IMG/VR virus record: IMGVR_UViG_3300031772_001238 | Location: 1-26,396 of that record | DNA length: 26,396 nucleotides | Origin: a virus | Direction: 5' to 3' (one strand) | Position numbers and translations under genes: made by a program | Shown here: piece after piece, positions 5,031 through 23,234 of the stretch | How the letters are laid out: each line of letters opens with the position of its first letter | Position numbering within the stretch: position 1 is the stretch's first letter | The notes under the pieces: model-generated | Told to the model about the DNA's origin: nothing | Database searches by the model: none | The model's input: only the letters and a program-made list of their open reading frames with translations

Positions 5031-5089
5031 ATTAATTTTACAGTTTTTCATAGTAATCGTTCGACCCTCGTTTCTACGGGGGTCTTTTT
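5031..5089 (+). ncRNA. Candidate small RNA of about 60 nt
   Basis: Starting about 7 nt after the TATATTTG box, transcription would run roughly 30 nt of unstructured AU-rich sequence, then a hairpin (5063-5084) and U-run (5085-5089). That is the standard layout of a short intergenic regulatory RNA with an intrinsic terminator as its 3' end. No open frame of useful length lies inside. The evidence is only the promoter-like box and the terminator; the hairpin alone could instead just end early transcription. Confidence 0.3.
5063..5089 (+). terminator. Intrinsic terminator between the convergent arms
   Basis: GACCCTCG (5063-5070) pairs with CGGGGGTC (5077-5084), 8 bp including one G-U pair, around a 6-nt loop, followed by TTTTT (5085-5089). 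The T-run is on the + strand only, so it acts on rightward transcripts. Its last bases overlap the stop codon (5088-5090) of the opposing phosphoesterase gene. In the leftward direction the stem is not followed by T residues, so the virion operon may read through. Confidence 0.78.
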
Positions 5090-6095
5090 ATAATATCCTA
5101 CCATTAAATATCCTCTTGTTAAAGAACTCATAGTCTCTTCCGTTGCTATCTAACTCAACCATAGCACAGCCCCAATTCCATTTGTTCAGTGGCATATACG
5201 CAGGATGCAATTCGGACAGACAACCGATACTCCAAGTGGTTGTTATCTTCCCATTCATATCAGTCTCAGAGTGCTCACTTGTAGAGTGGTTATGTCCTTG
5301 AAAAGCTGACACCTTACCCCTCATATAAAGACCACGTGCTACGTTTACCGGAGCAGAGATACCACCAATGTACTCGTGTCCGTGAATGCCGTTAAGCTCG
5401 TTGAGTTTCATAAACCTATTTGAGCTTATCACATCTATACCATTGGCTCTAGCCTTTATGATATTCTCAAACTCAAACTCTTCAACGCCTCTGAGCTCGT
5501 GAGCCTTCTCTAATAAGAACTTCTCGTATCTAGCCTCGTGGTTGCCTATCTTAAATAATACTTTGCATCCTAATTGCTTGTCAAGTACATTCATAAAAGA
5601 CTTAAGCGTATCCAACTCATATTTGAAGTCTCTCTTCTTCGGGTCCTTCACAAACCTTGACAACTGATGGAAGTCAAGTGTGTCTCCGTTTAGTAGCAGG
5701 GCGTCTACCTTCTCGTTCTTCAGGTACTTGATAGCACAGGTGAGCGCCTCAATGTTATGGTACGGTAGGTGTACATCTGATAGGATACCAACCTTTTTAA
5801 ATCCCTTGATGATAAATGGCTCATACACAGTTTCATCAGACTCAGGTAAGCTGTATGGGTTTCTAGGTCTTTCTTCTTCTCTGTAGAACTCAGTATTAAC
5901 TACTGCCGATTTTACTTTTTTAGCGCCTATCTTCCCTTCTATGTATCTAAGTGTTGACCTAGCGTCTTCTACATCTTTAAATACAAGGCTGTTTTCGCTA
6001 TATATTATTCTTGCTAATTTTAATGTTGGCATCTCAGGATGTTTTCTCCTGTACTCTCTTGCAACATCTGACTTTGGCGACAGTTTTTTAGGCAT
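5088..6095 (-). CDS. Calcineurin-like metallophosphoesterase at the end of the virion operon
   Basis: 335 aa. Residues about 101-275 hold all the metal-binding motifs of the calcineurin-like phosphoesterase superfamily in order: SDVH (106-109), NGDTLD (136-141), GNHE (184-187), HGHE (238-241) and GHNH (267-270). These coordinate two metal ions and hydrolyse phosphoester bonds. The substrate could be DNA, RNA, a nucleotide or a modified phosphate; sequence does not decide. The first 95 residues are extra, basic and helical (REYRRKHPEMPTLKLARIIY), possibly a DNA-binding or docking part. The ATG directly follows the stop of the giant gene, so it is the last cistron of the structural operon. No signal peptide. 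Confidence 0.9.
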   Translation of the reverse strand: MPKKLSPKSDVAREYRRKHPEMPTLKLARIIYSENSLVFKDVEDARSTLRYIEGKIGAKKVKSAVVNTEFYREEERPRNPYSLPESDETVYEPFIIKGFKKVGILSDVHLPYHNIEALTCAIKYLKNEKVDALLLNGDTLDFHQLSRFVKDPKKRDFKYELDTLKSFMNVLDKQLGCKVLFKIGNHEARYEKFLLEKAHELRGVEEFEFENIIKARANGIDVISSNRFMKLNELNGIHGHEYIGGISAPVNVARGLYMRGKVSAFQGHNHSTSEHSETDMNGKITTTWSIGCLSELHPAYMPLNKWNWGCAMVELDSNGRDYEFFNKRIFNGRIL

Positions 6096-9000
6096 TTACC
6101 ACTTTTTTGTTTTCTTGTATGAACGTATTACATTTCCTTGTGCATCTCTTACTGTTTTTGTATAAGAAGAAGAGCCACCATAATCCCAAGACTTTTTAGA
6201 TTTCTTCTTTCCTTTTATATATCCTTGCTCTTTATCTTCTTTCTCTTTTAATATGCTATTAAGTTGCTTTTCAACTTCAATCTCAAACATATGCTCTTTA
6301 TAATACTTTGAGTCTTCCCCGAAGTTCTTTTCATATTTATCAGGAGCATACCTCTTCATATCCTCTCTGTTGTCGTACCCTTCAAGAAGCTTATCCATCT
6401 CTTCCTTATCTTCACGTATCTCTTGCTTTCTTGCTTCTGCATCATATTTCTCATCCTCAGCTGTCTTAGACAGCTCATATATCATATCTCTTATGGCTGC
6501 TTTCTTTTTAGGATTACCTGTAGACTTCAATAGCTTTTCAAGAATATCAACCTTATCGCTTTTAACTCCTTCTGCCTCCTGCTTATTCTGCTCTGATTCA
6601 TACTTCTGCTCAGCCTCATTATATATATCTTCCTCACTCTTGCCCCCTTCTTTTGTAGAGGCATTCTTTTTTGCATAGCTAATAGCATTTCTTGTGATAG
6701 CATTTGCCTCTGCAGGGAGCAATCCAAAATTACTAACAAATGATACCAACCCTATTGTCTTAAGAGCTTCCTGATCAGGCTGAGAGATATACTTATCTCT
6801 ACCATACTCATCTTTAAAATTACCTGTAGTAGATAGTTTTATTATATTGACTAAGTCATTTGCTTTCCCTGCGGCTATACCTAGCACTCCTAATGACTTA
6901 ACCATATTAGCTACCGCATCTGAAGATGATTTTGCTCTTGTAAATAAACGAGCCTTATCTTCTTCTGCAACATCAAATAGGCTTTGACCTAAATCTATAA
7001 CCTTATCTACAGCGTAAACAGTTGGGTAATCTAAAATAGGTATAGGAGAAAACACATCTGATACAGTACCTGTTACCTGTGACTTTATTGCATTTGCTTT
7101 TCTTTTTTCATATTCTTCCTCTGTCTCATCTTCACCCATTAACGCCTTAGTAGCTGAGCCTAATAACATAGAAGCTCCTGTTGCAATAAATTTAAACGCT
7201 GCTATTTCAACTCCAAATCCAACCAAAGATTTAGCTGCCGAAGCTCTATCTTCCGCAGACGCTGTCTTACTTGTGAAGGTTGTAATATCAGACATCATCC
7301 TCATACTTTGATTCATTCTGAAGTTAGCAAAAGGCATCAGCACCTTTGATATCAATTGGTCTTTCGTATCCTTACTTCTAAAAAACTTTCCTTGAAGGTC
7401 TTTGTCGGATACGTTCTGCTGTCTATCAACCATACGTTGAGCATATTCTGCAGCATCAGCATCCACTTCGTGTTTGCTATAGTCTATATTCTTTGCATCT
7501 TTCCCTTGCTTTTTAAGACCTGCTTCATAATAGCTAAGCCAAGACGCTCTAGCTATCCATCTATCAGGTTTTTCTAAAAATGTTCTTAACCAAAACTGAC
7601 TCGCTTTTTCAATTATCTCTAGCCCTTTTTCAGGAGTTGTTTTTGACGCTAACTCTGCAACCTTATTAAGAGATTGAACATCAGCCAATGATTGAGCTCC
7701 TCTTACAGATATACCATACCCTATCTTATTTAAAAAATCTATTTTATCTTGATTGAAATGATATAGTAAATCTAGTTTCCCTTTTGTATTTATAAGCGTA
7801 TTGAAAGCTACGCCAACTGTTTGTTTTGGAATTTGCAAAACTCCTCCAAGTGCAGAGGCTACACCAATAGAAGAAACCGAGTTTAGCTTTCTAGCAAACT
7901 TTGTAATCTCATCAGAGTTTACAACTTGCTTGTTTCTTGCATTTCTAACTAAGTCTTGCACTGATTGAAATAATATCTTTCTGTCTTCTGTCTCCGGTAT
8001 AACCTTCTTTAAATCTTTTGATTTAAAAAAAGACTCCATCCGTCTTGTTAATCCTGATGTGTTAATATCCATAAGCGCATCCTGCATAGCATTTACTTGA
8101 CTCTTATCAAAAGAAAAGTCTCTATACATAGTAGGCTCTCTATCGTCATTCATTGGGAGTTCATCTGATGGTCTAACTTTCTCAAGTACGCCTGTCTTTT
8201 TCTTGTACACGTACTCGTTATTATTACCAAAAAACAAGGATTCACCTAATGGTATTTCTGTTTGCGTTCCGTCTTCTGATAACTTAGAATACTTTCTAGT
8301 AGTGTAGTCTAACTCCTTATCTAATATTTCATTGTGAACATTTTCAGAAACATCTTTTAGTTGATCATATATGCTATCCCACTTTTTTACCCACCAATCA
8401 ACAGCCTTAACATTATTGTTGTCTGATTTTTTAAGAACATCATTGATGTCCTTAGACTTATCTACAATCTTATCATATACTTTTTGGTATATCTGTGCTA
8501 ACTTTTGTTCTTTTTCATTTCCGTTTTCAAGGGCTTTTATACTTTGCTCTATTATCTTTTTCTTTCTATTAAACTCTGCTTGTTGCTGTTCATTAGAGCC
8601 AACTACATTTCTTTTTAAATCAGCAATCATTCCTCTTTCAACAATGTTTGCTTGAGACCTAAAATCTTCGCCATTTGTTTTTGTTTTATAAAAAGATTTT
8701 GAGTAGTCATTAATTATTTTGTTAATTACAGTTTGAACATATGTTTTCTTGTTTTTAAATTCAGTTATACCTGAAGCTTTTGAAAACTCTCTGCTCTTGC
8801 TTTCTCCTTTGAACATTTTATCCAATAGGATATTTTCATTTGTAAACTGCTGACCAAATAACTTTCCAAAATACTTACTAAAGAATAACTTCAAAGGCTT
8901 TGCTATAACCTTTTTATTTTCAGACCTTTTATTGTTTTCTTTAACTAAGTTTTCTATATTCTCTTTACCTGTATAAGCCTCAACAACCTTCTCCATTCTA

Positions 9001-12000
9001 GATGTAGAACCATTCTGAATAAAATTCATAAGCGAGTCTACCGTATTCAATGCGTCTTTAGCTTCAAGTTTACTCACATCCATATTCATAAACTTCTTCA
9101 GTAGTTCTTTCTTTGAATCAGATACATCAATAGGATCTCCAGTAAATGGATCTGTTCCCTTAGTTATGATATGGTCTACTATTGCAGAGTAAGAGTTAAA
9201 CATTCTTTTGATAGCATCTCTGATGATAGTTTCTTTTTCTTTCTTTTTAGTTTCATCCCCTTCCTTAGTGCTTTCCATAAGCTCAACTAATTCCTCATAA
9301 GTTATTCCTGTAAGGTCTGTGTTAAAAGCCTCATTTGCGGCAGCTAGTTTTTCATCATAAACCTTTTGCCTTTGAGTTTGCATCACATCATCTATGTATT
9401 CGTTGACATCTTTTATAGATACCATTTCAGCCTGCCTAATACCTTCAGTTCCTCCAACAATCTTAGAACCTTTTAATGACTCTTTAACTTTTGAAGCCAT
9501 ATCATTATAGGCGTCTATATCGTCAACCATTGATGGCTTGATATTTGCAAACTTTGTAGCTAACTCTTTTAAGTAAGGATCTTTGATTTCGCTTTTAGAT
9601 AGTTTAATTAAACTACTTCTTAAATCATTTGCTTTAGTTAACTTGTTATCATATTCAGCATCAGCAAATACTTTTTCAGCATACTCAATAACTTTCTCCA
9701 TTTGCTCATCGCTTTCAACATTAACTTTATTAATCTTATTAATTAATGCATCAGCTTGCTTTGTTGTTATACTCCCTGACTTCTCAATGTTCTTAATAGC
9801 TGCTGCAAATACTTTTCTTCTTTCATCTAGGCTCTTTTTAGACGCCTTCAGCTCCTTCATTGTATTCCTAAGTATTTTTGCTTGGCTTATTTCAATGGTA
9901 TCTGTCTTAGCATTGTCAATAACATCATTTATTTTGTCAACCGCTTTGTCTAAACTCGCCTCAGTTTCACCAACGTTAGACATTATCTTTCTGATTTTAT
10001 TCAAATCTTTTCTTGTAAGATTGCCGTATTCTTTTACTGATTGGAAATAGTCCTCTATCTTTTTTGTGGCTTCAGCTATTCTATCTTTAACTGACTTAGC
10101 TCCTTGCTTGGCAGCTTTAGAGATTTCAGTCATATACTTTTTGATGGTAGTCTTTATCTCTTTAGAGTTTTTCTGACCTAATAATTTCTCAGGAGATGGC
10201 GCTTTCTTTTCTTTAATATCAAATCTTTCTCTTACGTCTCTAACTAATTCCTCTTTTTCTATGCTATTAGCGTTCTTATATACATCGCTATCCTTTAATT
10301 TATCAATAGCATTGTCTATATTACCTTGCTCTGTATCACGTTCTGCTTTAGCTTCTTCTATCTTTTTTTTGTACTCAGTATCCTTTGCATCTCCTTTTTT
10401 ATATTTGTCAGTTTCTTTATATTTATCGTGACTAGCAGTCAATTCCACAATCCTATCTTCCCAAAGTTTTTTTCTTCTACTAGCAAAGTCAACATCTTCT
10501 TGTAGGCCTTGCATAGCTTCTTTATACCCTGATATAAAACCTGCTTTTATTTCACGCTCATATTCTTTAGCGTCAAACTTACCTTTATGATTAGCCTCAA
10601 TGTATTTTATTCCGGCTTTAATTGCATCACCTAATGACTTGCCTGCCTCAACAGTCTTAGCAACTAATTCAACGCTACCATCCCATATTGCTACAGGAAT
10701 ACCAAGTATAGCATCAAACGCTTTACCTTTGCCAACTTTGGCTGTTCTTATCTTATCAGCTAATGATTGAGCTTCAGGAGATGCAGGCTTTGATTCTATT
10801 TTTTTTAATTCAGAATCTCTTAAATCTTTTACCGTTGTAGTTATAACTTCATTTCCATCTGTTAATGTAAGAGTAGCTTTTTTGCCATTTACATCAACCG
10901 AAAGCATACGAACTTTATACTTTCCACTACGCAAATCAGGCATAGTATCATCTTGTGATATATTTACATCACTTAAATCGATTTCTTCTCCTTGTTTAAC
11001 TGTTTTACCATCAAAAGTAATACTATCAGCCTGCCCTCTTTTACCTTGAAAAGTAATTTCAGGAGCAGGTTCTTTTAAGGATTGTTCTATTTTATTCCTT
11101 TCGTCTATTAAAGCATTAGTCTTATCTTGTAATTCATTTAACTTGATTTCATTTTCTGATTTCGGAGTGCCTATTTTTCTATCTTCATTGTTTACAATAT
11201 CTGCTAATGAATTATACTCATCATCAAAAGAATCTATTTCATCATTTAGTTTTTTTATTTCTGCTTTTTTCGCTTCTACTTCTTTTTCCCCTTCAGTAGT
11301 GATGACTTCTTCTCCGGTAGTGACTTCAGGTTGGGTGTCTCCTTCGTCCACTTCTTGCAGTCCCAATTCGGGTTGTTCGCTGAGTAGCACGCTTTCATTT
11401 GACTTTTGCTTTTGAATGGCATCTTCGTTTGCTTTATTGGTTATCAATTCAGTTAGCTGATTGTTCAAATCCTCTAGCTCTTTTCTTTTATTATCTACAT
11501 CTATCTTTGCCTTTATTCTATCTGATGGACTCTTTAAGTTAGTGAACACCTCTGCAGAATCATCCAATTTCTTTTGAGCCTCATCTATCTTGGTATTCAA
11601 CTCTCTTTTCTTTACAGCAAATTCAGACATGTCGTAATTGTCTGCAATAGCATTAATCTTATTTATAAAAAACGTCTTCTGCTGATCAGATAAATCATCT
11701 TGCTCATTTATTCTAGATACAATAAAATCTTTATCTTCTACTATACTTTGTATGTTGTTATGAGCATCCAATTGGTTTTGTATCTTAACCGCCTCATTAC
11801 CCAACATCTGCTTCTTCTTCAAGTCAGGCTCTCTAAGTATTGCCTTCTTTATCTCATCTCTTGCTTCTTCTAAATCAGCTACTTTTTCAGGAGTCAATTC
11901 AGGATTATATGCCAAATCTAAATTAGATTTAGTCTCGTTTAAAACCCTGCTAAATGAATATTGCTTATCGTCATTTAAGACATTCTCATAATAGTGATTG

Positions 12001-13355
12001 GCTTCGTTATGAGTATCAAATTGGCTTTTAAGATGCAGCAAACTAAATCCAGCACCTGTACCTGCCTCCATAGCTACTTCTTCAGCAGTAAGAAATCTTT
12101 GTTCGGTAGCCGCCGTCCTCAATGCCTTTGCTGTAGTGAACACCCCTGCATTAGAAAGAGGAGAAGCTATAGCTGTAGCTATAGCGCTATTAATGCCTGA
12201 CTTAGATATAAACTTTGATACCGGCTTTGTAACTTCACCTGCAGCCATACCAAGCCCGTGCATATACATACCCTCTACAGTTCCTTTTGCAGCTCCTTCT
12301 ACGCCATTCCAAAACACATTCTCGCCTTCCTTAGTATCAGCCATAGATTTTACGGCGTATCCGGTTGCCATTATTTTAGTAAATGGAGCAACAATTGACT
12401 CCTCTAAAACTTTAGCTGCCTTTGGCGCATTATCTCTTATAAAAGGAGTAGCTTTCTCAGTAGCCTTTTTTGTCCATTCTGCCGCTTTTGATTCTGCTGC
12501 TGCAGGTCCTGCCATCTTACCTGCTAGAATCAACTCAGGAGCCATCCCAATTATATTCTTTGCTATCTCTGTAGGTATATTTTTAGGGAGTGTTTTTTCT
12601 TGATAAGCCTCTACCCTTATAACATCAGATTGGATATTGTTTGATGCTATCGCTAGTCTATTTATTATTTCATTTCTTTGCTTCTCAGGTAGTGCCGAGT
12701 TTATAACCTTATTGGCAATAGTAGCTATGCTACTAATAATTACTCTTGGGTCTAATGGAGATTCTCCTTTTGTTTTTGCTTTTTCAAGTTGCTGTTTTAA
12801 TGCATCAGATATAGGCTTATCTGTTTCAGGCATATCTTCATCAAAGAATCCTCCTTGCTTAAGCATATTCTTTTCAGCATTAACTATATTGTCTGATGTT
12901 TCAAGAAACCATTTCCATGCACTTGAAGCTAATCCTGTTGTTACGTCTGCAGTTTTCTTTGCAGCTAACATTGTTGCTGATTGAGCTTTTAGTGCTGCAT
13001 TTCCAATTTTAGATAACACACCTTCTTCTTCAGGTTGAGGAATCTTTTTAGGTTGTACTTGAGGAGTTTGTTCGGTAGGCAAACCCAAAGAAGTATCTTC
13101 CGAACGTGATACCGTAGTAGCGGATTGTCCTTTTTTTTTTACATCTTCAGGAGTAGCAGGAGCAGTTGCATTTTTTCCTACAAGAGAAGCAAAATTATTT
13201 TCATCTTTTTGGTATCCATTAGTTTTTACATAAGAATACATATCGTTAAAAACTTGAGTATCATTATGCAAAAGTTTAATAAACTCATCTCTACTTTTTG
13301 TATACCCTTGACCTTTTGCTCTATTGTATAAATCATCAATTACTTGTTCGTCCAT
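6096..13355 (-). CDS. Giant gp16-like internal virion / ejection protein (2,419 aa, polyvalent)
   Basis: The position, directly after gp14-like and gp15-like genes, matches T7 gp16, the large ejection protein that crosses the cell envelope with the DNA. Layout: two copies of a 24-residue motif D-x-Y-x(3)-K-x(2)-GY-x-K (7-30 and 37-60); hydrophobic or Ala/Gly-rich segments near 263-286, 346-376 and 386-406; long Lys/Glu coiled-coil regions (about 430-760 and 925-1600); a small beta segment near 770-850; an Ala-rich helical segment near 872-922; hydrophobic helices near 1825-1850, 2041-2069 and 2149-2172; and a charged C-terminal tail with Tyr/Gly/Ser. The part before 2040 (DRWIARASWLSYYEAG, then PFANFRMNQS) resembles the C-terminal domain of large polyvalent phage proteins. 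I see no clear lytic transglycosylase motif, unlike T7 gp16, and no polymerase aspartate motif. An A10 tract lies at codons 72-75. Confidence 0.75.
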   Translation of the reverse strand: MDEQVIDDLYNRAKGQGYTKSRDEFIKLLHNDTQVFNDMYSYVKTNGYQKDENNFASLVGKNATAPATPEDVKKKGQSATTVSRSEDTSLGLPTEQTPQVQPKKIPQPEEEGVLSKIGNAALKAQSATMLAAKKTADVTTGLASSAWKWFLETSDNIVNAEKNMLKQGGFFDEDMPETDKPISDALKQQLEKAKTKGESPLDPRVIISSIATIANKVINSALPEKQRNEIINRLAIASNNIQSDVIRVEAYQEKTLPKNIPTEIAKNIIGMAPELILAGKMAGPAAAESKAAEWTKKATEKATPFIRDNAPKAAKVLEESIVAPFTKIMATGYAVKSMADTKEGENVFWNGVEGAAKGTVEGMYMHGLGMAAGEVTKPVSKFISKSGINSAIATAIASPLSNAGVFTTAKALRTAATEQRFLTAEEVAMEAGTGAGFSLLHLKSQFDTHNEANHYYENVLNDDKQYSFSRVLNETKSNLDLAYNPELTPEKVADLEEARDEIKKAILREPDLKKKQMLGNEAVKIQNQLDAHNNIQSIVEDKDFIVSRINEQDDLSDQQKTFFINKINAIADNYDMSEFAVKKRELNTKIDEAQKKLDDSAEVFTNLKSPSDRIKAKIDVDNKRKELEDLNNQLTELITNKANEDAIQKQKSNESVLLSEQPELGLQEVDEGDTQPEVTTGEEVITTEGEKEVEAKKAEIKKLNDEIDSFDDEYNSLADIVNNEDRKIGTPKSENEIKLNELQDKTNALIDERNKIEQSLKEPAPEITFQGKRGQADSITFDGKTVKQGEEIDLSDVNISQDDTMPDLRSGKYKVRMLSVDVNGKKATLTLTDGNEVITTTVKDLRDSELKKIESKPASPEAQSLADKIRTAKVGKGKAFDAILGIPVAIWDGSVELVAKTVEAGKSLGDAIKAGIKYIEANHKGKFDAKEYEREIKAGFISGYKEAMQGLQEDVDFASRRKKLWEDRIVELTASHDKYKETDKYKKGDAKDTEYKKKIEEAKAERDTEQGNIDNAIDKLKDSDVYKNANSIEKEELVRDVRERFDIKEKKAPSPEKLLGQKNSKEIKTTIKKYMTEISKAAKQGAKSVKDRIAEATKKIEDYFQSVKEYGNLTRKDLNKIRKIMSNVGETEASLDKAVDKINDVIDNAKTDTIEISQAKILRNTMKELKASKKSLDERRKVFAAAIKNIEKSGSITTKQADALINKINKVNVESDEQMEKVIEYAEKVFADAEYDNKLTKANDLRSSLIKLSKSEIKDPYLKELATKFANIKPSMVDDIDAYNDMASKVKESLKGSKIVGGTEGIRQAEMVSIKDVNEYIDDVMQTQRQKVYDEKLAAANEAFNTDLTGITYEELVELMESTKEGDETKKKEKETIIRDAIKRMFNSYSAIVDHIITKGTDPFTGDPIDVSDSKKELLKKFMNMDVSKLEAKDALNTVDSLMNFIQNGSTSRMEKVVEAYTGKENIENLVKENNKRSENKKVIAKPLKLFFSKYFGKLFGQQFTNENILLDKMFKGESKSREFSKASGITEFKNKKTYVQTVINKIINDYSKSFYKTKTNGEDFRSQANIVERGMIADLKRNVVGSNEQQQAEFNRKKKIIEQSIKALENGNEKEQKLAQIYQKVYDKIVDKSKDINDVLKKSDNNNVKAVDWWVKKWDSIYDQLKDVSENVHNEILDKELDYTTRKYSKLSEDGTQTEIPLGESLFFGNNNEYVYKKKTGVLEKVRPSDELPMNDDREPTMYRDFSFDKSQVNAMQDALMDINTSGLTRRMESFFKSKDLKKVIPETEDRKILFQSVQDLVRNARNKQVVNSDEITKFARKLNSVSSIGVASALGGVLQIPKQTVGVAFNTLINTKGKLDLLYHFNQDKIDFLNKIGYGISVRGAQSLADVQSLNKVAELASKTTPEKGLEIIEKASQFWLRTFLEKPDRWIARASWLSYYEAGLKKQGKDAKNIDYSKHEVDADAAEYAQRMVDRQQNVSDKDLQGKFFRSKDTKDQLISKVLMPFANFRMNQSMRMMSDITTFTSKTASAEDRASAAKSLVGFGVEIAAFKFIATGASMLLGSATKALMGEDETEEEYEKRKANAIKSQVTGTVSDVFSPIPILDYPTVYAVDKVIDLGQSLFDVAEEDKARLFTRAKSSSDAVANMVKSLGVLGIAAGKANDLVNIIKLSTTGNFKDEYGRDKYISQPDQEALKTIGLVSFVSNFGLLPAEANAITRNAISYAKKNASTKEGGKSEEDIYNEAEQKYESEQNKQEAEGVKSDKVDILEKLLKSTGNPKKKAAIRDMIYELSKTAEDEKYDAEARKQEIREDKEEMDKLLEGYDNREDMKRYAPDKYEKNFGEDSKYYKEHMFEIEVEKQLNSILKEKEDKEQGYIKGKKKSKKSWDYGGSSSYTKTVRDAQGNVIRSYKKTKKW

Positions 13356-13365
13356 TTTTTATAAA

Positions 13366-15210
13366 TTATTTTGTAGAATAATCAGGTTTACCTTCAGTTA
13401 CAGTCTCAGGTCCTATAGCTGTTTCTTTATACTCAGGATCTATTGATTGCAAGAATTTTTTTACTATTTCAGCATTAGCTTTAGCTTCCTCATCTGTACT
13501 TTGATTTGTATTTACCTTTATAGATTTAGGCAGTCCTTTTTTAGGAGTATATGTTATTTCAAGATCATTAAAACCTGTAGTCTCAACTGTTACTCCGGGA
13601 GTATCTCCTATTACCTCAATAAGTTTAGGTGCTGCATATACATTATCTAATTTTTTAAATATAGTATATCTTACTTTATCAACAACCTTATTTTTGTATT
13701 CTCCTTCCACATCTCTAGGCGCTACTGTTCCTTTTATCTCTCCTGAAGGCTTACTGAATGCTTTACCCATAAATCTAGGGAACTTATTGATTATCATTTC
13801 ATCAGGAATATCTACTCCCGTTGCAGTTTTCAACGCTCCAATAATTGACTTTCCTTGATCCATTGGATTTCCTATTGGCTCAAATCTAATCATCTCTCCT
13901 GATGCGTTTTCAATATACACACCTTTGCCTTTACCTATAGGGTCAACTACTACATTAGCTTTTTTACCTGTAAAATATTTAACTGCATCTGCTTTTTGTG
14001 CAGGGGTTCCTGTTAATAAATATGACGTTTGACGTGAGAAGTTTTCAGCTTCTCTTAAGTCTTTTTCTTCACTAGCTTCTACTTCACTTTTTGATCTAGG
14101 TTTTTCAAGTTGTCCTGTAACTTGCGTTTTCTCCTCATACTTATATTTAGGTCTAGTCATATTGCGAACAAAATCATTAGAGTCTTTCTTTTGCTTATCG
14201 CTAAATACAAGATTTGGCTGTTGTGTACTTGGATTTATCTCCTCATAGATAGCCTCAGGATTGGCTGCTGCGTCTGCCTTATCGTGAGTTCTTCTGTATG
14301 CCTTTTGCGTAGTTGGCTCAAATTGTAAATGATCCATAAGTACAGAGCCTCTAGCATACGGATTAGATAACGAGCTATCTATCCATTGGTTTTCTGCATT
14401 ATAAAAATTAAATATCTCTTGCCTTTCTCCATTGCTTAATTTTAACTCATCAGCTCTTCTAGTTATATCATCAATAGTAACAACCTTGCCTTGCTTCCAT
14501 AGTCCTGCTGCGGCTGACATTGCTGCATCAGTTTTTATATATACCCCCATTTTAGAAGACCAATCGTCAGATATCTTTTGAACGTCAAGCTTATCAATCT
14601 TTCTTTTTGTAATACCCATAATCTGATTCATACTATAGATATCATTCGGATTGTCGGATATAGACATTACCTCTTTACCATCAATAGTCTTCTTCTGTGT
14701 TTTAGCAAGATTAAGAACGCCATTAACAGGATTGATAACAAACTGAACGCCACCCCAATCTCCTCCAATCTCATCAAGTTTAGCCCAATCTTGTACTTGC
14801 ATTATAGATGCCGTTCCATTTCTATATGCATCCATTGATTCTCCGTATCCCTTTTGGTATGACTCAAGAGCATCGAATGACCTAGTGATATCGTCTTTAA
14901 GATTCTGAGTATTTATAAGATAGTCTCTAAGTTTTAACTTGCCCGACTTCAACAACTTCAACTGCATATTCTTGTACTGCGTAGCGTCATCTGCAAGCTT
15001 GAGCGCAGCTGTTCTAGCATTGGCATCCTGACCTTGAGGGTACTCAGATAGCGTCATACCAAGTTGCCTTGAGTCCTCGTCAATAGCCGCCTTCTTCTCT
15101 TTACGAATCTTATTCTCATTGGCGAGCATATCGCTCATATTCTTACCTATCTCCGCCCAATTGACAAAGTCGGTAGCATCTCTCTGTACATATTTATATC
15201 CTAATGGCAT
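13366..15210 (-). CDS. gp15-like internal virion protein (614 aa)
   Basis: No motif identifies it directly. It begins MPLGYKYVQRDATDFVNWAEIGKN and is mainly charged alpha-helix through residue 130 (KIRKEKKAAIDEDSRQLG), with mixed helices and linkers after that, and ends with a proline/threonine-rich tail. There is no signal peptide or strong membrane helix. The assignment rests on gene order: between a gp14-like small hydrophobic-N-terminal protein and a giant gp16-like protein, where T7 has gp15, and on its size (T7 gp15 is of the same order). It would be part of the internal core that forms the ejection channel. It is separated from the giant gene by 10 nt and from the gp14-like gene by 12 nt. 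Confidence 0.6.
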   Translation of the reverse strand: MPLGYKYVQRDATDFVNWAEIGKNMSDMLANENKIRKEKKAAIDEDSRQLGMTLSEYPQGQDANARTAALKLADDATQYKNMQLKLLKSGKLKLRDYLINTQNLKDDITRSFDALESYQKGYGESMDAYRNGTASIMQVQDWAKLDEIGGDWGGVQFVINPVNGVLNLAKTQKKTIDGKEVMSISDNPNDIYSMNQIMGITKRKIDKLDVQKISDDWSSKMGVYIKTDAAMSAAAGLWKQGKVVTIDDITRRADELKLSNGERQEIFNFYNAENQWIDSSLSNPYARGSVLMDHLQFEPTTQKAYRRTHDKADAAANPEAIYEEINPSTQQPNLVFSDKQKKDSNDFVRNMTRPKYKYEEKTQVTGQLEKPRSKSEVEASEEKDLREAENFSRQTSYLLTGTPAQKADAVKYFTGKKANVVVDPIGKGKGVYIENASGEMIRFEPIGNPMDQGKSIIGALKTATGVDIPDEMIINKFPRFMGKAFSKPSGEIKGTVAPRDVEGEYKNKVVDKVRYTIFKKLDNVYAAPKLIEVIGDTPGVTVETTGFNDLEITYTPKKGLPKSIKVNTNQSTDEEAKANAEIVKKFLQSIDPEYKETAIGPETVTEGKPDYSTK

Positions 15211-15222
15211 ATCTATTAATTA

Positions 15223-15990
15223 TTATCCTCTTTTATATAAATAAGGGTTATTTAAAAATCCAAATGGATCATATTGTTCTTCCATTGGAGCTGTACTCAT
15301 AGGTTTTAGTTTTAAAGAGCTTTCAGGTATGCCTTTAAATGGAGCAGAAATCTTCTGAGCAGGCTCCGCATTTTTTGCATTCTTTATCATTCTTTTCTCA
15401 ATTCTTTTTTGCTGACGAGCTTCTTTTCCTCCTCCGCCTCCTACATACAATGGAACCAATTGTAATGCCTGCTGACCCATACTTGTAACACCCTGCCACC
15501 CTTGTTGCGTAGCAGCAGTAGCAGCAGCCTGTGCATCTGCAGCCATTTGTTGTTGGCCTGCGACCTCTTCCAAATCTAACTGAACACCAACGTCACGAAG
15601 CCTGCTTTGTTCTTGCACTTTTAATTTCTCAAGGTCAGACAACTCCTTGCCCATTGCTGTCCTTATATCTCCCTGCATTTCGTTCTGAGCCATCTGGACT
15701 CTACCTGCTGTAGCCGCAGCTCCTCTCTCTTGCTCTCTACCTGCCTGTATAGCCTCAGCTCCTTGCACAAGAGCAGCCTCTCTCGCTAATTCGTAAGGTT
15801 CTTTTTGAACAGCTAACTTATCCATATAGTTAACCTCAAGCTTTTTACGAGCCTCAGCCATCGCCTTCTCTGCATCTCTTTGAGCCTGTGCTGCATTCTT
15901 TTCCTGATTAGCAGCCTGAACGAATGACGATGCAGTACTTGCTGCACTTAACGCCAATCCGCCTACCGCTATCGCTGTTGCTACTCCCAT
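15223..15990 (-). CDS. gp14-like internal virion protein (255 aa)
   Basis: Residues 3-27 are a small-residue hydrophobic helix (GVATAIAVGGLALSAASTAS). This is followed by a long Ala/Gln/Glu/Lys-rich helical stretch (about 28-165, for example QAQRDAEKAMAEARKKLEV) and a glycine run near residues 185-188 (VGGGGG). T7 gp14 and its relatives in many podoviruses have just this form: a membrane-inserting N-terminus and an alanine-rich coiled body, building the outer-membrane part of the ejection channel. It directly precedes the gp15-like and gp16-like genes, as in T7. It follows the acetyltransferase stop by 1 nt. Confidence 0.7.
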   Translation of the reverse strand: MGVATAIAVGGLALSAASTASSFVQAANQEKNAAQAQRDAEKAMAEARKKLEVNYMDKLAVQKEPYELAREAALVQGAEAIQAGREQERGAAATAGRVQMAQNEMQGDIRTAMGKELSDLEKLKVQEQSRLRDVGVQLDLEEVAGQQQMAADAQAAATAATQQGWQGVTSMGQQALQLVPLYVGGGGGKEARQQKRIEKRMIKNAKNAEPAQKISAPFKGIPESSLKLKPMSTAPMEEQYDPFGFLNNPYLYKRG

Positions 15991-15991
15991 C

Positions 15992-16405
15992 TTATAAAAT
16001 TTTTATCATTTCGCCTACATAACTATCTCCCTTAGTATAACCAAGTTCTTTATATATATTTACGAGGCTTTGGTTTTTAATTAAGGCATAACAATACTTA
16101 CTTCCTGAGTTTTTACAAACATTTGTAAGCGTCTCAATAAGCAAGTTAATAGCCTCTTTTCTTTGTGGCTTTTTCCTGTATGTTTTACTAGAAATAATCC
16201 AATCTACCCAAGCAACCTTTGAGTTGGTAACGTATGTAAACCCTGCACATACAGGCTCATCACCATCCATAATCATAAGACCACCTTTACCATCCTCAGG
16301 GAGAAAATCCTTTGCAGGCGCTTCCCATTTCCAATCATTCCACCAACCGACAAGGATTTCTTGATAGTCAGTATCTTTTAATAATCTTATATCTAATGAA
16401 TCCAT
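15992..16405 (-). CDS. GNAT-like N-acetyltransferase (137 aa)
   Basis: A compact GNAT-like fold: beta strands with GLMIMDGDEPVCAGFTYVT (42-60) and VAWVDWIISS (64-73), a helix starting around QRKEAINLLIETL (81-93), and the C-terminal segment IKNQSLVNIYKELGY (109-123), matching GNAT motif B in which Tyr118 is the common acid residue. The acetyl-CoA loop R/Q-x-x-G-x-G/A after strand 4 is replaced by YRKKPQRKEA, so the cofactor site is degenerate. The target is unknown; candidates are a virion protein or a host protein. Genes of this kind are recurrent next to ejection-protein genes in aquatic podoviruses. A TATCTTTG box just upstream could give it separate expression. Confidence 0.72.
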   Translation of the reverse strand: MDSLDIRLLKDTDYQEILVGWWNDWKWEAPAKDFLPEDGKGGLMIMDGDEPVCAGFTYVTNSKVAWVDWIISSKTYRKKPQRKEAINLLIETLTNVCKNSGSKYCYALIKNQSLVNIYKELGYTKGDSYVGEMIKIL

Positions 16406-16425: not shown

Positions 16426-17223
16426 TTAAGGAAAACTTTTCATAACTTCAGAATTAACCGTAAACAACTCAATCTTACCGCTTGAATAGTTCTGCATAGT
16501 GAATGTCATATAGTGACCAAGCACTCCATGAGACTCCGCAACCGAGTTCTTAATATACAAGAAGTAGTTCACATCTCCCGGTATAGCAACAGTTCCCGGA
16601 GGACTCGTATCTATCACCAATCTGTTTACACCTGCAGGATAGTTAACAATTATATTCTGAACGATACCTGCCCAATTTAACTGAGCGGCATCAAAATAAA
16701 TAAAGTCACCAATACTTATGATACCACCTATTGCAATAAGTGGTTTTATAGAGAAATTAACGGTATTACCACCTGTAACAGTCAAACTATCACCAATTCC
16801 GTTTACACTCCTTAAAGCCAACTGCCCCTGAGAATTGTTTCTTACAATCGCAAAGTATGACGCTTCCTTCTTCTCAAAGAACCCTGCATCTACATATCCT
16901 GAGTACTGAAGGTCTGTTTGTAATTGCATACTCCAAGTGTCATCTCCTTCTAGGTTTATAGTCTTAAACAACTTGTTCTCAAGCGGAGAATTGTTTATAA
17001 CACTTTGCAACTGTGTTGCAGTAAATGCAAGTTCAGGATGATTTTGCCTATCCCACCAATCATAATAAAATGTATTTCTCGCATCGCTTACATTGTGCCT
17101 GTATAGATTACCTCCCTTGAATGTATATAGGTAGTTATTCATCCCCAATATGTAATCAGGATTGTACGAGTAAAATGAAGGCCACCCTTCAACACCGGGA
17201 CTATATGTTATTGTATATTGCAT
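16426..17223 (-). CDS. Tail-associated structural protein (265 aa)
   Basis: Predominantly beta, with an aromatic-rich N-terminal half: GWPSFYSYNPDYILGMNNY (13-31), then YTFKGGNLYRHN (33-44) and RNTFYYDWWD (49-58). Phrases of the type W-x-S-x-Y-S-Y and F-x-x-G-x-L-Y-x-H-N occur in tail proteins of Bacteroidota podoviruses, sometimes near the tail stabilisation protein. Later residues form regular short strands (for example NTVNFSIKPLIAIGGIISIG). It lies in the tail part of the operon, 1 nt after the 313-aa gene, so a role in the tail hub or receptor contact is likely. I cannot name a specific function. Confidence 0.6.
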   Translation of the reverse strand: MQYTITYSPGVEGWPSFYSYNPDYILGMNNYLYTFKGGNLYRHNVSDARNTFYYDWWDRQNHPELAFTATQLQSVINNSPLENKLFKTINLEGDDTWSMQLQTDLQYSGYVDAGFFEKKEASYFAIVRNNSQGQLALRSVNGIGDSLTVTGGNTVNFSIKPLIAIGGIISIGDFIYFDAAQLNWAGIVQNIIVNYPAGVNRLVIDTSPPGTVAIPGDVNYFLYIKNSVAESHGVLGHYMTFTMQNYSSGKIELFTVNSEVMKSFP

Positions 17224-17224
17224 A

Positions 17225-18166
17225 TTAACAAGTTTGTGATATTGATACTACTACCCCATTCTGTACCTCTATGGTATCATATGGAATTGGCAAAAAGTTT
17301 GTTTTGTAATATCCATTAGCTAATTTATTCTCACCATAAGCATCAGTAAATATCCAATCGTAAATGCCAACAAAAGGGTTAGCGCCATTTACAGGAGCTA
17401 CATAATAAGTTTGGTTAGTAGGTAATGCACATCTTATAATGTTATCATTTTCTTCCGTTGACCCTGTAAATGAACGAAGAAGAGCAGGGCAAAATACAAA
17501 TATATTGGAGCCGTCCGAATCAGGTTCGCATGGAGTAGCTATGCGTATCGTCATTGAATTAAACGAGTTGTCTAACTTAGGAATGACCATTATGCATTTG
17601 TCAGGATTAGCTAATGTAAGCAGGTTTGATGTAGAGGGTGATGTTACGGTTAAATCTCCTCCCGTTGGAAGAAAGTTAACCCCATCGTACCCGTATACAA
17701 GTAAATCTTGAGAAAGTCCACTCCCCACAAATCCGCAATTATCAGCAGCGTCTCCCAAATAGGTAAAGTCAGATATCGTTGACGCCGCTAAGTATCCAAA
17801 GGTTTCAGAGCTAACTTCATTATAATAAGTTCCATTAAAATCAACTGATATACCATTAGGGACATAATTTGGATAAAACTCAATAATTATTGCTCCTACA
17901 TCAGTAGGATTTGTTCCTGTATTTACATCTATAACATACACCCCTATATCAGCATTTGTAGTTACGTCAAACAATGGAATGCAATCTTGGCCACAGGGAG
18001 GACAGCTCTGCTGAGGCAATAACGAGCAGCCCACTTGCTCTCTTGTTATTAATCCATCGCTATAAAAACCATCAGCAGCGCATGCCGTCAAGGCTGCATC
18101 GTAAAATACAGCTGTAGCGGATCCAAGTGATGGAGCGTTTAAATAAAATGTTTGCTGTATCGGCAT
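17225..18166 (-). CDS. Cysteine-containing tail protein, receptor-binding candidate (313 aa)
   Basis: The N-terminus TFYLNAPSLGSATAVFYDAA (6-25) followed by DGFYSDGLITREQVGC and a cysteine cluster (Cys29, Cys47, Cys55, Cys58, Cys62; the run CPPCGQDC at 55-62) resembles a short beta module that recurs in Bacteroidota phage tail proteins. The rest is Thr/Asn/Ser/Gly-rich beta sequence without enzyme motifs, ending in Cys. The C-P-P-C spacing could bind a metal or form disulfides. It sits directly after the 1,683-aa tail protein, which also ends in a cysteine-rich region, so the two may assemble together at the tail tip. Function is inferred from composition and position. Confidence 0.6.
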   Translation of the reverse strand: MPIQQTFYLNAPSLGSATAVFYDAALTACAADGFYSDGLITREQVGCSLLPQQSCPPCGQDCIPLFDVTTNADIGVYVIDVNTGTNPTDVGAIIIEFYPNYVPNGISVDFNGTYYNEVSSETFGYLAASTISDFTYLGDAADNCGFVGSGLSQDLLVYGYDGVNFLPTGGDLTVTSPSTSNLLTLANPDKCIMVIPKLDNSFNSMTIRIATPCEPDSDGSNIFVFCPALLRSFTGSTEENDNIIRCALPTNQTYYVAPVNGANPFVGIYDWIFTDAYGENKLANGYYKTNFLPIPYDTIEVQNGVVVSISQTC

Positions 18167-18182
18167 AACTTGTTTTTAATTA

Positions 18183-21100
18183 TTAACAATTTGAAAAATC
18201 AACACATCCGTCATATGGCTCAATGGTACAATTTCCAAAAAGTTTATTTGGATTAAACCCTGTACGAACACAAATATACTTTGTTGTACCTGCTAAAAAA
18301 TTATCATTAACCTCTTGATTGCTGCAATTAATCCAAGCAATAAATGAATTTGTTATTGCTACAACTTTCCATTGAGTACAAAGATTATATTCGCAACATT
18401 TGCAAGTATTTGTCAAATAAAGATTGCTAATATCTCCAATATCTACTTCAGGAACTGTCCCAAACTCACAGCAAAACTTTTTATTAGCTCCAGATGCTAT
18501 ATTTATCGATACCTCTACCCCTGCCGTACAATCAAAATACTTAACTACAGAAGCAGGGTTTCTATTTGGATTAACATAAACGTAAGTAGAACATTTTGCG
18601 CATTCGGTTAATGATATATACGCATTCCCTTGTGTTACTTCATAGTCGGTACCGACCTCTACGCAAGTTTCATATACCTCGTCAGGATCTAGCTCTATTG
18701 TAAATGGAGCACTAGCGCATTTTCCACCCTGCGTAACTCCGATATCTACAATTGCAATTGTTGTAGAAGATAGATTTGTAATAGTAATATTTACGCAATC
18801 TGTAGTACACGTTTCGCAATTGCAACATACTTCTTTTTTGGGTTCTATAGATGTACTTTCTGCATAGCATAATTCAGACGCTATAGCATCTCTCATATCC
18901 CAAATTAAATACAGTATATCTCCCAACGTCTTATCAGGAACGTTAAAGTTTGCTTGGTATATTGGAGAGCTTCCTGTTATCGGACTAGCAACACTTGACA
19001 GCCCTATTGCAGTCAATATACTTGCAGGCGTGTTTGGATATAAAGTATTTGTTCTCAAATATCTAAACCTATCGTTCAATGGGTTGAATATAAAGTCATC
19101 AGGGAATATCTTATTCGTCTGTAAAGACATAGTGCTAAACTCAGGAGGGAATGCCCCTGCGCCCACATTACCTGTAGTTACATTGTATCTTGATACCAAT
19201 GGGTTAGCAGTTCCGCTAGCAAATGTCACTAAATTAGATTGCAATCCAGAGATGTAAGTCCCATTTGTATATCTATATTGAGTATGTATCTGCTGCCCTG
19301 CTTCTGTATTATTGCCAACTACTATCTCTACTATAGTCAACACCTCAGGCACCGGGCACTCTGCAGTTATCTGCAATACTAAATTGCCATTAGATGGTGT
19401 TATTGTTATAACAGCAGTCTCAACAGATATTGAGTTTTTGTAAAAAGTTATTTGACCATCGCCTGTAACAAGCCCTGAGCTATATGTATTTGTATTGTAT
19501 TCTACAGAAACCTCAAAATCATCTCCTGTAAAGCTAACAACAGACCAAGAGATTGTTGTTTGTCCTACAATTGAGTTCAAGTCAACGCAATAGGTAAGGG
19601 GCTCTGAAATAGATATCGTTTGAGTAATACCGCAAGCTAAACACTGTGGATTACTTGGTATAGGCGTGTCGTTTGTAACCAAAACGTACTCGTTCATATA
19701 TGGATCAAATCCGCCTAGCTTCTGAGTGCTGAAGGAATCGTTAAACATATCTCTAAACCACGTTCTCATATTTTGCTCAGAAATAATTTTTATCTGATCG
19801 CTTGAGTATGAGTCTCCCATTAATTGAAGCACAGCGCCACGCTTGACGTCAGTAAAGTATCTGCTTGCTCCCCATTGAACATAACTCTCAGGATTAAAAC
19901 TAATACCATATTTCTCTGTACGAGCAATCTGCGTACCTAACACCTCAGGCACTGAAGATATCGCCCCTCCGCCTGTTGAGTCTGATAATAAGTTCTTCCC
20001 TGCTAGTACATAAGATATCTTATCTTCTTGTAAAACAAGAACGTCAGTCTCTCTGCCGTCTAATTTATATATTGGACCAAATGATGTCTCTAGGGTTTTA
20101 AAATTTAAAAGGCCTAGATTAAATTCATTAAGTTTATTTACATTAGTCTCTGCGTTATACACACCGCTATAGGTAATGTCCGCAAACCTATCTGCTTCCT
20201 TATATTCCTGTGCTGCAACAACATTTACTCTTTCTCCTAAGTTGAAGCTTCTTCCAATTATAGAATCTCTTATCTTATAACCCTCTGCACCATTGCCAAA
20301 ACAAAAGCAATTAAAAAATTCAGTATCTACAACACCTGCTATGCCACCTGCAATATCTTGGTCAGTTACGTTTCCCATATGGTTCCCGTCATCATCTATA
20401 GAAAATGATAAGTTATTCTCATAAAACACATCGGGCAAGGCATCTTGCGGTTCTGTTTCAAATATTATAAGACCAACTGCTCTGTATACTTCTATTCTAG
20501 CATCTACACAATATGCTCTACTATTTGAATAATTCGTACCGGGACAACTAAGTCCTGTTGTTAAGCCTAGCGTTAATTGGTTATTTGATGTATTTCTAAA
20601 AAACTGAAAATAACAAGTATCAAAGCTATCAGGACCAAATGCAAAGTCTGTCCTTAATGTAGGTAAAAATGTAAGCGTAGTTACGCCATCCAAGCTGTAC
20701 CCTGTATTTAAAGTTAATGCTATATTATCTCCTATAAACCACTCATACATATTATCATAATTCGAAGTAGATATATACGTTTTTTGAAGAACATACCCTC
20801 TTCTTTCGCACTTTCTTCTCACGCCTACGCGCTCAAACTTTATATCAAATATCACTCTACTACCTGCAGGAATAGAGTAGTCTATATACGCACCCGGACT
20901 GCTAGGATCATCAATATTTGCAGGATACTGCAATCTATTGGAGTATCCTCCTTGCCAATCAGATATGGCACATACGCCTCTAACTCCATAATCTACATAT
21001 GAATTAACAACAGAAGCTACTGAAAAGCTATTTGCTTTCATTTTCATATACACACCTGCAGGGATGCTTCCTGCAACAGCAGGATTTATTATAAAATTCG

Positions 21101-23234
21101 AAATTTTAGAGTCTTTTTCTAATACTGTAGCGTATTCGCAATTTGGCAATGCGCCATTTGTATCCGCTTTAACTATATACCTATCTCCAACCTCAACCTT
21201 TCTTATATTTTCTCCTTCCAAAAGAAAATATGTAGCATTGGTGTCTTTATCTGTAAAAAATAAACTTGTATATATTATCTCATAATTTTCTGCATCAGGC
21301 TTTACAACAAACTTGTATCTCTTTGCCCAAGATGGAGCTATCTGTGTTGTAGGTATAGTAACACGTATTTGATTTTGATAAATAGAAAATCCACAAGGGA
21401 CGTGCACTGTGTCATTTAAATTGCTAACTAATGCAGTAGATGATCGGTTAAACTCATCCATATATACTATACCAACTTGATACCCTCTATTGCTGTGTAA
21501 ACTTCTTGGTGTAGATATTTTTTGATAAATCGCATCTGCAAATAATATCTTATAATACTCGTAATAATAATTTGTAGGAGTATTCAAATTGTCAACAAAT
21601 TGCATTGAAATAATTTGAAGCCCTATCTCGTCACTTCCCGGAGATGTTATTATTTCTATAGCTTGTTCTATATTAGATATTCCACTTGCGTACTTTGAAA
21701 CTGTACCAAGATTCAGAATACTACAATTTATTTGATCCGTAAAAGTTGATCCGGAACAAGACGTTTGTACTCCTAATATAGGGCTATATACAGGCTTTAT
21801 ATTTCCTGAGGGCAAAGATGTTCCAATAAATTGCTGAAACTCAACGCTAGTAGCTAATTGATACACTGATGTGTAGTCTTGACTCAATATAAATGTAAAA
21901 GAGCCATCAACAAGACCTGTATTCGTTGTGGGATTGGGGCTTGGTAAAGCTCCCCAAGCAGAATGTGTTATTCTTAAATCTAAAGATATAGACGCACCTT
22001 GCGTTAAAGGGAGCCCGTTTAAATCTAAATATACAATAGAGTCTACTATAGTAACAGGAAGCGCAGGTTGTATACTATAATATCCTGACGCAAGACGCGT
22101 AGGAATACTCTCATCTCCAACACTTGTAGTTATAAGCTCTGTTGTGTACTCTAACTTTGTTGGGTTGTCATTCTTGTCTTTTAAATCATACCCTTCCATA
22201 TAATTACCATACATCAGCCTGTTGCCCATAATTGTTTGAGCTTTAGCGTAACGCGGAACGTTATCATAAAGCCTTAAAAGCTCATTAGAAGAAAGTATGG
22301 TAAATATCTTGCTATCGCTAAATGTATATTGTACATCAGCGTAGTTTGATGTTTTTTCAAAAGTATCTATTACTTTTATTATATTATTATTTGCTTGTTT
22401 AAATAACAAATCAATAGCAGTAACTAAAGGTCCGCCTGTATTATATGTAACAACAGCCGTATTAAATTGGTTTGCCATTCCCTCATTTAAAAACGAATCA
22501 ACACTAAAACTAAAATTATTCGGAGAAAATGCTATATCAGACCATTGCGATGTAGCTGAATACTCTCCATCCGCATATCTATACCTATAAGCAAAAGATA
22601 TAAATCTTGTTTCTAAAAAATTTGATTGACCTGCAGTATTAATAAGACTTATTGTAGGAGACTCACTAGGGGGCTTCTTTATGACAAGCAACTCCTCTGC
22701 TGTAACCTCATCTATATCGCCAATAGGATTGGCGTAGTTCTTTTTTGAATTTATAAATCTAGGAGCGTTATAATCATCAGTAAAATACAAGAAATCACCT
22801 ATGACATTCACTCCTGTGATTAAATATAAGTCATTAAAATTAAGAATGGTATTAACGCCACCTCCATCATCTATGCTAATAACGTGATAAGCAAGTATTC
22901 CTGTAAACACGTTAAATGATACAATCATATCCAACTTGCCTGTTGCGCCTACGGTAAAAGCAGAGTCGTGTACAAACCAATATATAGTTTCATTTGCGCT
23001 ATCCTCAATGGCTCCTATACACTTAGCGGCAATACTCAACTGAGTGCCATCTATATATCTCAATTCAGTTAATGGTATATTTCCTTTAGTATTCTCTATA
23101 ACACCAACCTCAGACTGCTCTGTTGAGCCCATCCTTACGTTCATAGCGTCTACATACTCACCTTCAGGTAATAAGCGTTGGTCTACTACCTTATTCATTC
23201 TACCTGCTATGAAGTTCCTTGAAAATTTTGCCAT
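18183..23234 (-). CDS. Large tail stabilisation / tail-tube B-like protein (1,683 aa)
   Basis: The N-terminus (residues 7-52: NFIAGRMNKVVDQRLLPEGE, then YVDAMNVRMG and GVIENTKGN) is the characteristic opening of tail stabilisation proteins of crAss-like and related Bacteroidota podoviruses, similar in role to P22 gp10 and T7 gp12. Most of the protein is beta strand, as in a propeller-type tail hub, including a predicted tail-platform region up to about residue 1150. Around 1165-1250 an Ig-like insert begins after CLACG. The last 214 residues (1470-1683) contain 21 cysteines arranged in three repeats. Proteins of this group are usually shorter, so the C-terminal part looks like an added receptor-binding or adhesin section. 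It follows the tail-tube gene by 1 nt. Confidence 0.82.
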   Translation of the reverse strand: MAKFSRNFIAGRMNKVVDQRLLPEGEYVDAMNVRMGSTEQSEVGVIENTKGNIPLTELRYIDGTQLSIAAKCIGAIEDSANETIYWFVHDSAFTVGATGKLDMIVSFNVFTGILAYHVISIDDGGGVNTILNFNDLYLITGVNVIGDFLYFTDDYNAPRFINSKKNYANPIGDIDEVTAEELLVIKKPPSESPTISLINTAGQSNFLETRFISFAYRYRYADGEYSATSQWSDIAFSPNNFSFSVDSFLNEGMANQFNTAVVTYNTGGPLVTAIDLLFKQANNNIIKVIDTFEKTSNYADVQYTFSDSKIFTILSSNELLRLYDNVPRYAKAQTIMGNRLMYGNYMEGYDLKDKNDNPTKLEYTTELITTSVGDESIPTRLASGYYSIQPALPVTIVDSIVYLDLNGLPLTQGASISLDLRITHSAWGALPSPNPTTNTGLVDGSFTFILSQDYTSVYQLATSVEFQQFIGTSLPSGNIKPVYSPILGVQTSCSGSTFTDQINCSILNLGTVSKYASGISNIEQAIEIITSPGSDEIGLQIISMQFVDNLNTPTNYYYEYYKILFADAIYQKISTPRSLHSNRGYQVGIVYMDEFNRSSTALVSNLNDTVHVPCGFSIYQNQIRVTIPTTQIAPSWAKRYKFVVKPDAENYEIIYTSLFFTDKDTNATYFLLEGENIRKVEVGDRYIVKADTNGALPNCEYATVLEKDSKISNFIINPAVAGSIPAGVYMKMKANSFSVASVVNSYVDYGVRGVCAISDWQGGYSNRLQYPANIDDPSSPGAYIDYSIPAGSRVIFDIKFERVGVRRKCERRGYVLQKTYISTSNYDNMYEWFIGDNIALTLNTGYSLDGVTTLTFLPTLRTDFAFGPDSFDTCYFQFFRNTSNNQLTLGLTTGLSCPGTNYSNSRAYCVDARIEVYRAVGLIIFETEPQDALPDVFYENNLSFSIDDDGNHMGNVTDQDIAGGIAGVVDTEFFNCFCFGNGAEGYKIRDSIIGRSFNLGERVNVVAAQEYKEADRFADITYSGVYNAETNVNKLNEFNLGLLNFKTLETSFGPIYKLDGRETDVLVLQEDKISYVLAGKNLLSDSTGGGAISSVPEVLGTQIARTEKYGISFNPESYVQWGASRYFTDVKRGAVLQLMGDSYSSDQIKIISEQNMRTWFRDMFNDSFSTQKLGGFDPYMNEYVLVTNDTPIPSNPQCLACGITQTISISEPLTYCVDLNSIVGQTTISWSVVSFTGDDFEVSVEYNTNTYSSGLVTGDGQITFYKNSISVETAVITITPSNGNLVLQITAECPVPEVLTIVEIVVGNNTEAGQQIHTQYRYTNGTYISGLQSNLVTFASGTANPLVSRYNVTTGNVGAGAFPPEFSTMSLQTNKIFPDDFIFNPLNDRFRYLRTNTLYPNTPASILTAIGLSSVASPITGSSPIYQANFNVPDKTLGDILYLIWDMRDAIASELCYAESTSIEPKKEVCCNCETCTTDCVNITITNLSSTTIAIVDIGVTQGGKCASAPFTIELDPDEVYETCVEVGTDYEVTQGNAYISLTECAKCSTYVYVNPNRNPASVVKYFDCTAGVEVSINIASGANKKFCCEFGTVPEVDIGDISNLYLTNTCKCCEYNLCTQWKVVAITNSFIAWINCSNQEVNDNFLAGTTKYICVRTGFNPNKLFGNCTIEPYDGCVDFSNC
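18204..18719 (-). repeat. Coding region for three cysteine repeats in the tail protein
   Basis: Residues 1506-1677 of the tail protein contain three copies of the spacing Cys-x(17-18)-Cys-x3-Gly-x7-Gly-x(8-10)-Cys. The copies start at Cys1506, Cys1569 and Cys1637, with middle cysteines at 1524, 1588 and 1655. The period is 64-67 residues. The DNA copies are too diverged to show as nucleotide repeats, so the duplication is old or the pattern is held by selection. Confidence 0.7.

Follow-up and report, generated by a model that had tools for sequence, protein, structure and literature searches.

The muzzle of the phage crAss001 is a hexamer at the end of the tail that forms the cargo gate, and its distal part has been proposed to contact the cell surface (PMC10172136). 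In the same phage, the tail barrel and the fiber hubs are reported to be stabilized by disulfides, and parts of the tail are joined by inter-protein disulfide crosslinks (PMC10172136). Small modular domains encoded by Bacteroidota phages have been shown, in another setting, to be adhesins (PMC13370021). Here we describe a muzzle encoded in a viral DNA stretch of 26,396 nucleotides (IMG/VR record IMGVR_UViG_3300031772_001238, positions 1 to 26,396; hereafter the window), the relatives of which infect Flavobacteriaceae. The muzzle, a gatekeeper of the tail, is split into two chains, one of which ends in three copies of a four-cysteine module.

A muzzle split into two chains

The ORF at positions 18183–23234 of the window (minus strand) encodes a protein of 1,683 aa with 38 cysteines, which a preliminary description made from the sequence alone had taken for a tail hub protein. 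We identify it instead as chain A of a crassvirus-type muzzle (nozzle) because it is homologous to gp25 of phage elemoA, which itself bears PF25729 (crAss_MUZ_C); PF25731 (crAss_MUZ) matches neither the 1,683-aa chain nor elemoA gp25. Chain A also matches phrog_14478, annotated as a virion structural protein (E 7.9e-213), and the named proteins most closely related to it are virion structural proteins from Cellulophaga phi13:2 and the Flavobacterium elemo phages. Two genes downstream of chain A lies the ORF of what we term chain B, in which PF25729 is found at window positions 16429–17223 (38.9 bits against a cut-off of 27) and which shares 31% identity with the C-terminal 233 residues of elemoA gp25, a fused muzzle (E 9e-31). 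The homology of chain B to the C-terminus of elemoA gp25, together with its PF25729 match, indicates that the muzzle is split into chains A and B. The parts of the split muzzle are as follows:

19665..23234, minus strand: core of muzzle chain A (residues 1–1190), homologous to elemoA gp25 and phi13:2 gp120
18873..19664, minus strand: slot region with the upstream accessory domains of chain A (residues 1191–1454), past the end of the elemoA gp25 alignment
17225..18166, minus strand: accessory slot ORF, 313 aa with 11 cysteines
16426..17223, minus strand: muzzle chain B, a 265-aa protein that corresponds to the C-terminal part of a fused muzzle

Chain A aligns with elemoA gp25 as far as its residue 1185 (elemoA residue 1215), and chain B resumes the alignment at elemoA residue 1237. 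Read by sequence, the corresponding stretch of the PhicrAss001 muzzle protein gp44 consists of two consecutive strands, DVYFTYKDH and then LCYSELINQFTSF; the muzzle seems to have been split at the turn that separates these adjacent strands of its C-terminal part, at about gp44 residues 1181–1200. In every relative for which both chains were identified, 75 of 75, they are separate ORFs. Within the slot region, residues 1234–1279 give a weak match to Big_15 that lies below the cut-off, and the N-terminal 58 aa of the slot ORF match a 183-aa ORF of the uncultured podovirus MW202828 (E 7e-14).

Several neighboring genes of the window merit description. Three adjacent proteins encoded at 6096–15990 (2,419, 614 and 255 aa) are free of cysteine, contrasting with the cysteine-rich tip, and are possibly ejected through the tail, which would explain why they have none. 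The large cysteine-free protein is followed by a metallophosphoesterase-like protein (5088–6095; phrog_221, E 3e-34). At 15992–16405, within the tail gene cluster, lies a 137-aa acetyltransferase-like gene (phrog_17252), the MW202828 counterpart of which is annotated as an N-terminal acetyltransferase subunit and of which elemoA gp24 looks like a counterpart by sequence.

A family of four-cysteine modules

Our recount places 21 of the 38 cysteines of chain A within its final 214 residues, in agreement with the preliminary description, and the pattern that was proposed there, Cys-x(17-18)-Cys-x3-Gly-x7-Gly-x(8-10)-Cys, matches exactly at residues 1506, 1569 and 1637 (window 18204–18719, minus strand). 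The starts of the pattern are spaced 63 and 68 residues apart rather than at the claimed period of 64–67. Among 20,000 shuffles of the 214-residue tail, none matched the pattern three times, whereas 38 matched it once and 2 twice. The proposal of a tandem repeat holds in that one cysteine-defined module recurs three times; it falls short in giving the unit three cysteines, since the first of four had been overlooked. In particular, comparison of the three segments with one another, with those of an orthologue and with the single copy that MW202828 carries at the corresponding site revealed four invariant cysteines, C1 to C4, the first of which lies ~18–26 residues ahead of the first cysteine of the earlier pattern, such that the units start one cysteine earlier, at residues 1480, 1548 and 1619. 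The C-terminus of chain A is therefore laid out as follows:

18807..18872, minus strand: cysteine clasp LCYAESTSIEPKKEVCCNCETC (residues 1455–1476), just before the modules
18600..18797, minus strand: four-cysteine module 1 (residues 1480–1545; C1480, C1506, C1524, C1545)
18402..18593, minus strand: four-cysteine module 2 (residues 1548–1611; C1548, C1569, C1588, C1611)
18204..18380, minus strand: four-cysteine module 3 (residues 1619–1677; C1619, C1637, C1655, C1677)

Conservation of the cysteine spacing in homologues, which the preliminary description had singled out as a check, is borne out. The orthologue L005, which is 81% identical to chain A in the best segment, keeps 38 of 38 cysteines despite an identity of only 57–64% in the tail (87% in the core), and when seven tails with modules are aligned, almost every cysteine of the modules and the clasp is invariant. 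These findings confirm the three-copy tandem of a cysteine module at the C-terminus of chain A.

We define the module as a unit of ~60 aa with the form C1..[YW]-x-[DN]-C2-x-G..C3..C4 and a match to the module profile, and all three window units have both. The family was initially searched for with a seven-unit profile, run iteratively on the open reading frames of every viral locus that had been fetched, which yielded 247 domains in 131 ORFs; a stricter cut-off left 127 ORFs, corresponding to 106 distinct proteins from 102 loci, with one to four copies of the module per protein. By BLAST, 28 of the 106 are muzzle chain A and 1 is chain B, a further 11 are similar to the slot ORF, and the remaining 66 are other proteins. 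Because these 66 are neither muzzle nor slot ORF, the module is not specific to the muzzle site. A 1,591-aa protein encoded at L143:1948-6720, for example, combines DUF5122 beta-propeller repeats (E 1e-52) with two four-cysteine modules.

Could the modules be cysteine-rich, low-complexity sequence with convergent spacing rather than a homologous domain? Many loci were obtained with a DNA pattern for YTDCDG, so that the search itself selected this motif and how often C2 occurs in them is uninformative; a profile-supported module is present in 69 of the 120 loci found by the pattern, and the remainder are mostly chance-like. When a profile trained solely on modules from the YTDCDG loci, a set that includes some muzzle proteins, was run on the window as a test of independence, it placed units at residues 1480–1545, 1548–1611 and 1619–1677 that together scored 37.6 bits, although the single units, at 8.8–18.9 bits each, are weak after such training on distant members. 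However, none of 4,999 shuffles in which the cysteine positions were fixed reached this score (the best had 14.7 bits), and a profile blind to cysteine still recovered 187–198 modules.

The predicted structure likewise argues against convergence. A model of module 3 built with an alignment of 50 modules is confident (mean pLDDT 96.4, pTM 0.79) and has six β strands, at module residues 2–8, 12–17, 23–28, 33–38, 45–48 and 51–56, with the cysteines at 1, 19, 37 and 59. A Foldseek search of predicted viral proteins (BFVD) found the same fold in the phage protein A0A6J5M7Y7 (TM 0.90 across the module, E 1.1e-3) at 23% identity, as well as in other unnamed phage proteins. A model of the whole tail from seven sequences is poor (pLDDT 69, pTM 0.36), and a fold search made with it was left out as evidence for that reason; in this model each of the three segments nevertheless has about six strands in equal order, as predicted for segments that share a fold. 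Taken together, these results largely refute the convergent-spacing reading, which we regard as very improbable.

Searches of the PDB with the module fold returned nothing significant and no match that implies a function. On a second look, the PDB matches were TRAP and small double-stranded β-helix proteins, with Z at most 5.6; TRAP, cupins, Ena1C and an archaeal virus turret protein, all at Z below 6, were set aside as sharing a common arrangement only. Sequence searches of Pfam, PHROGs, NCBIfam and the PDB returned no family for the tail or its modules. Direct tblastn of the tail against phage records gave no match, nor did a peptide scan of viral contigs with the tail; we attribute these empty single-sequence searches to the module diverging too fast. 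Named phage records likewise gave no match to the consensus of the profile or to a protein with three modules. The module is thus a compact β module that is widespread in uncultured phages, was unnamed in the family libraries used here, and is now defined.

Variation of the slot and its modules

Between chains A and B, the relatives range from a 3-base overlap (L262–L264, in which chain A has just 1,106 aa) to a gap of 2.8 kb with three ORFs. Within the slot, of which the C-terminal end of chain A is a part, four-cysteine modules, further cysteine-rich domains and the clasp follow one another in an order that differs among relatives. Counterparts of the slot ORF carry one or two modules in some of these (L189–L195, L200, L202, L208), in L070 it is the N-terminal end of chain B that carries modules, the slot of phi13:2 contains Big_9/cadherin-like domains, and the module is missing altogether from many split muzzles (e.g. 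L235–L264). On a tree of the chain A core, the presence of the module requires at least nine changes, six of which are forced by supported branches; the number was still nine when truncated rows were set aside and L006 and L051 were counted as bearers. These data show that the history of the module is independent of that of the core, that the muzzle is split, and that the slot is variable.

The clasp motif occurs in one to five copies in 39 of 43 proteins from relatives, and is a conserved end point or boundary motif among them. In the chain A C-termini of L035, L014 and L020, a clasp of the form LCYSxxDxxDACCGC recurs up to five times around a small domain with the motifs YYLNGP...VFTD...CPGC, and by this arrangement repeated clasps could be seams for module exchange.

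Comparison of the window with L005 indicates that the tail is under purifying selection. Synonymous differences per site are 0.85–0.88 in modules 1 and 2 and 0.50 in the core, values for which exact rates are unreliable because synonymous sites are nearly saturated. The raised synonymous difference of modules 1 and 2 would be expected if they had been exchanged separately from the core. Modules 1 and 2 (window 18402–18797) are near synonymous saturation while module 3 is core-like, at 0.52, as if the first two had been exchanged without the third.

Proposed cysteine pairing and role, and known systems

Leaving alignment shifts out of account, a module has either the full set of four cysteines or two of them: C3 and C4 are absent in L081 and L170, and C1 and C2 in L006 and L051. 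Apparent losses of a single cysteine (xCCC, CxCC and one CCxC) proved to be alignment shifts when the sequences were read, with one L081 unit being ambiguous. In the model of module 3, the first hairpin lies between residues 1 and 19. The paired losses, few in number, and this placement fit pairing of C1 with C2 and of C3 with C4 and do not fit a single metal site formed by four cysteines, and each module probably contains two such disulfides, a reading drawn from a few exceptional lineages and from the strand order. The preliminary description had held disulfides and zinc to be both possible; the paired losses tip the choice toward disulfides. Its remark that disulfides would be unusual in such a protein does not apply to this group, the tail of crAss001 being described as disulfide-stabilized (PMC10172136).

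Binding of zinc by the four cysteines of the module, or by the CxxC-rich linkers, would suit folding in the cytoplasm ahead of lysis, and the modeled strand order may put all four cysteines near one end of the domain; the linkers also offer C-x2-C pairs at 1473/1476 and 1545/1548. We nevertheless consider zinc quite unlikely. Successive cysteines within the module are about 17–25 residues apart, with no CxxC of the kind that marks a zinc ribbon or knuckle; natural variants have lost two of the four cysteines and kept the other two, a change incompatible with zinc bound by all four; and no metal-binding family scored above its cut-off. CxxC is limited to the clasp and linkers, which could bind metal through these pairs.

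The reading that we favor, and think more likely than not, is that the tail tip displays exchangeable modules stapled by disulfides, which are probably adhesive, a reading for which we infer the disulfides, the exposure, the hexamer and the adhesion. Three small β modules would hang on the C-terminus of chain A, each held by intramolecular C1–C2 and C3–C4 disulfides, and the split point of the muzzle would be a slot where exposed accessory domains are inserted and swapped. If the muzzle is hexameric as in crAss001, 18 modules would be displayed per tip, and these would most likely contact the cell surface at a surface glycan, the capsule or an outer-membrane component. The disulfides would form after lysis in an oxidizing environment, so that the tip would withstand conditions outside the cell. 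We suggest contact with the surface because the modules are variable, fast-evolving, putatively stapled, and located in the slot of a crAss001-like muzzle; the adhesin precedent of the Bacteroidota phage domains (PMC13370021) is an analogy only.

Alternatively, the modules may be mainly structural, the cysteines of the module, or those of clasp and linkers, crosslinking neighboring subunits or partners without any binding to the outside. The position of module and clasp exactly between the two muzzle halves fits this proposal, as do the inter-protein crosslinks of the crAss001 tail, but the split does not need the module, given the many split muzzles that lack one, and the module is also present in other proteins. 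Moreover, cysteine is absent from chain B of the window, which excludes a disulfide between chains A and B there, and we judge a mainly structural role to be rather unlikely. With similar reserve we raise the possibility, doubtful in our view, of a host-range cassette carried on the split muzzle and not on the tail fibers, with a strand-turn slot for swappable stapled modules that would be armed by oxidation after exit. If the display modules do bind host surfaces, the muzzle would join the tail fibers as a site where crAss-like phages change host contact, an idea that can be tested directly with cultured phages from related lineages, which infect Cellulophaga and Flavobacterium.

Known domains resemble the module in part. 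HYR_4C (PF23237) is by name a four-cysteine β domain, and touches just 2 of 51 modules (best E 0.013). A0A6J5M7Y7, from an uncultured Caudovirales phage, has the predicted fold of the module in a protein that is unnamed. The Ig-like and BACON adhesin domains of Bacteroidota phages (PMC13370021) are likewise small, modular and encoded near structural genes, whereas the modules are defined by their cysteines and match no Ig-like Pfam family above the cut-off.

The muzzle can also be compared with described muzzles. PhicrAss001 gp44 (PDB 7qok), which bears PF25731 and PF25729, is like the window muzzle in being a virion tail-tip protein and in its crAss_MUZ_C part, found here on chain B, and length variation by insertion is already known in its family. 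However, gp44 is one chain of 1,371 aa in which we found no four-cysteine module, whereas the window muzzle is encoded by two ORFs with accessory material between them and its chain A is unmatched by PF25731. Flavobacterium elemoA gp25 is a fused muzzle, unlike the split muzzle of the window. The proteins gp120 and gp121 of Cellulophaga phi13:2 (Pachyviridae) also form a split muzzle, with chain A extended at the corresponding place; there the extension consists of Big_9/cadherin-like domains, and in the window of four-cysteine modules.
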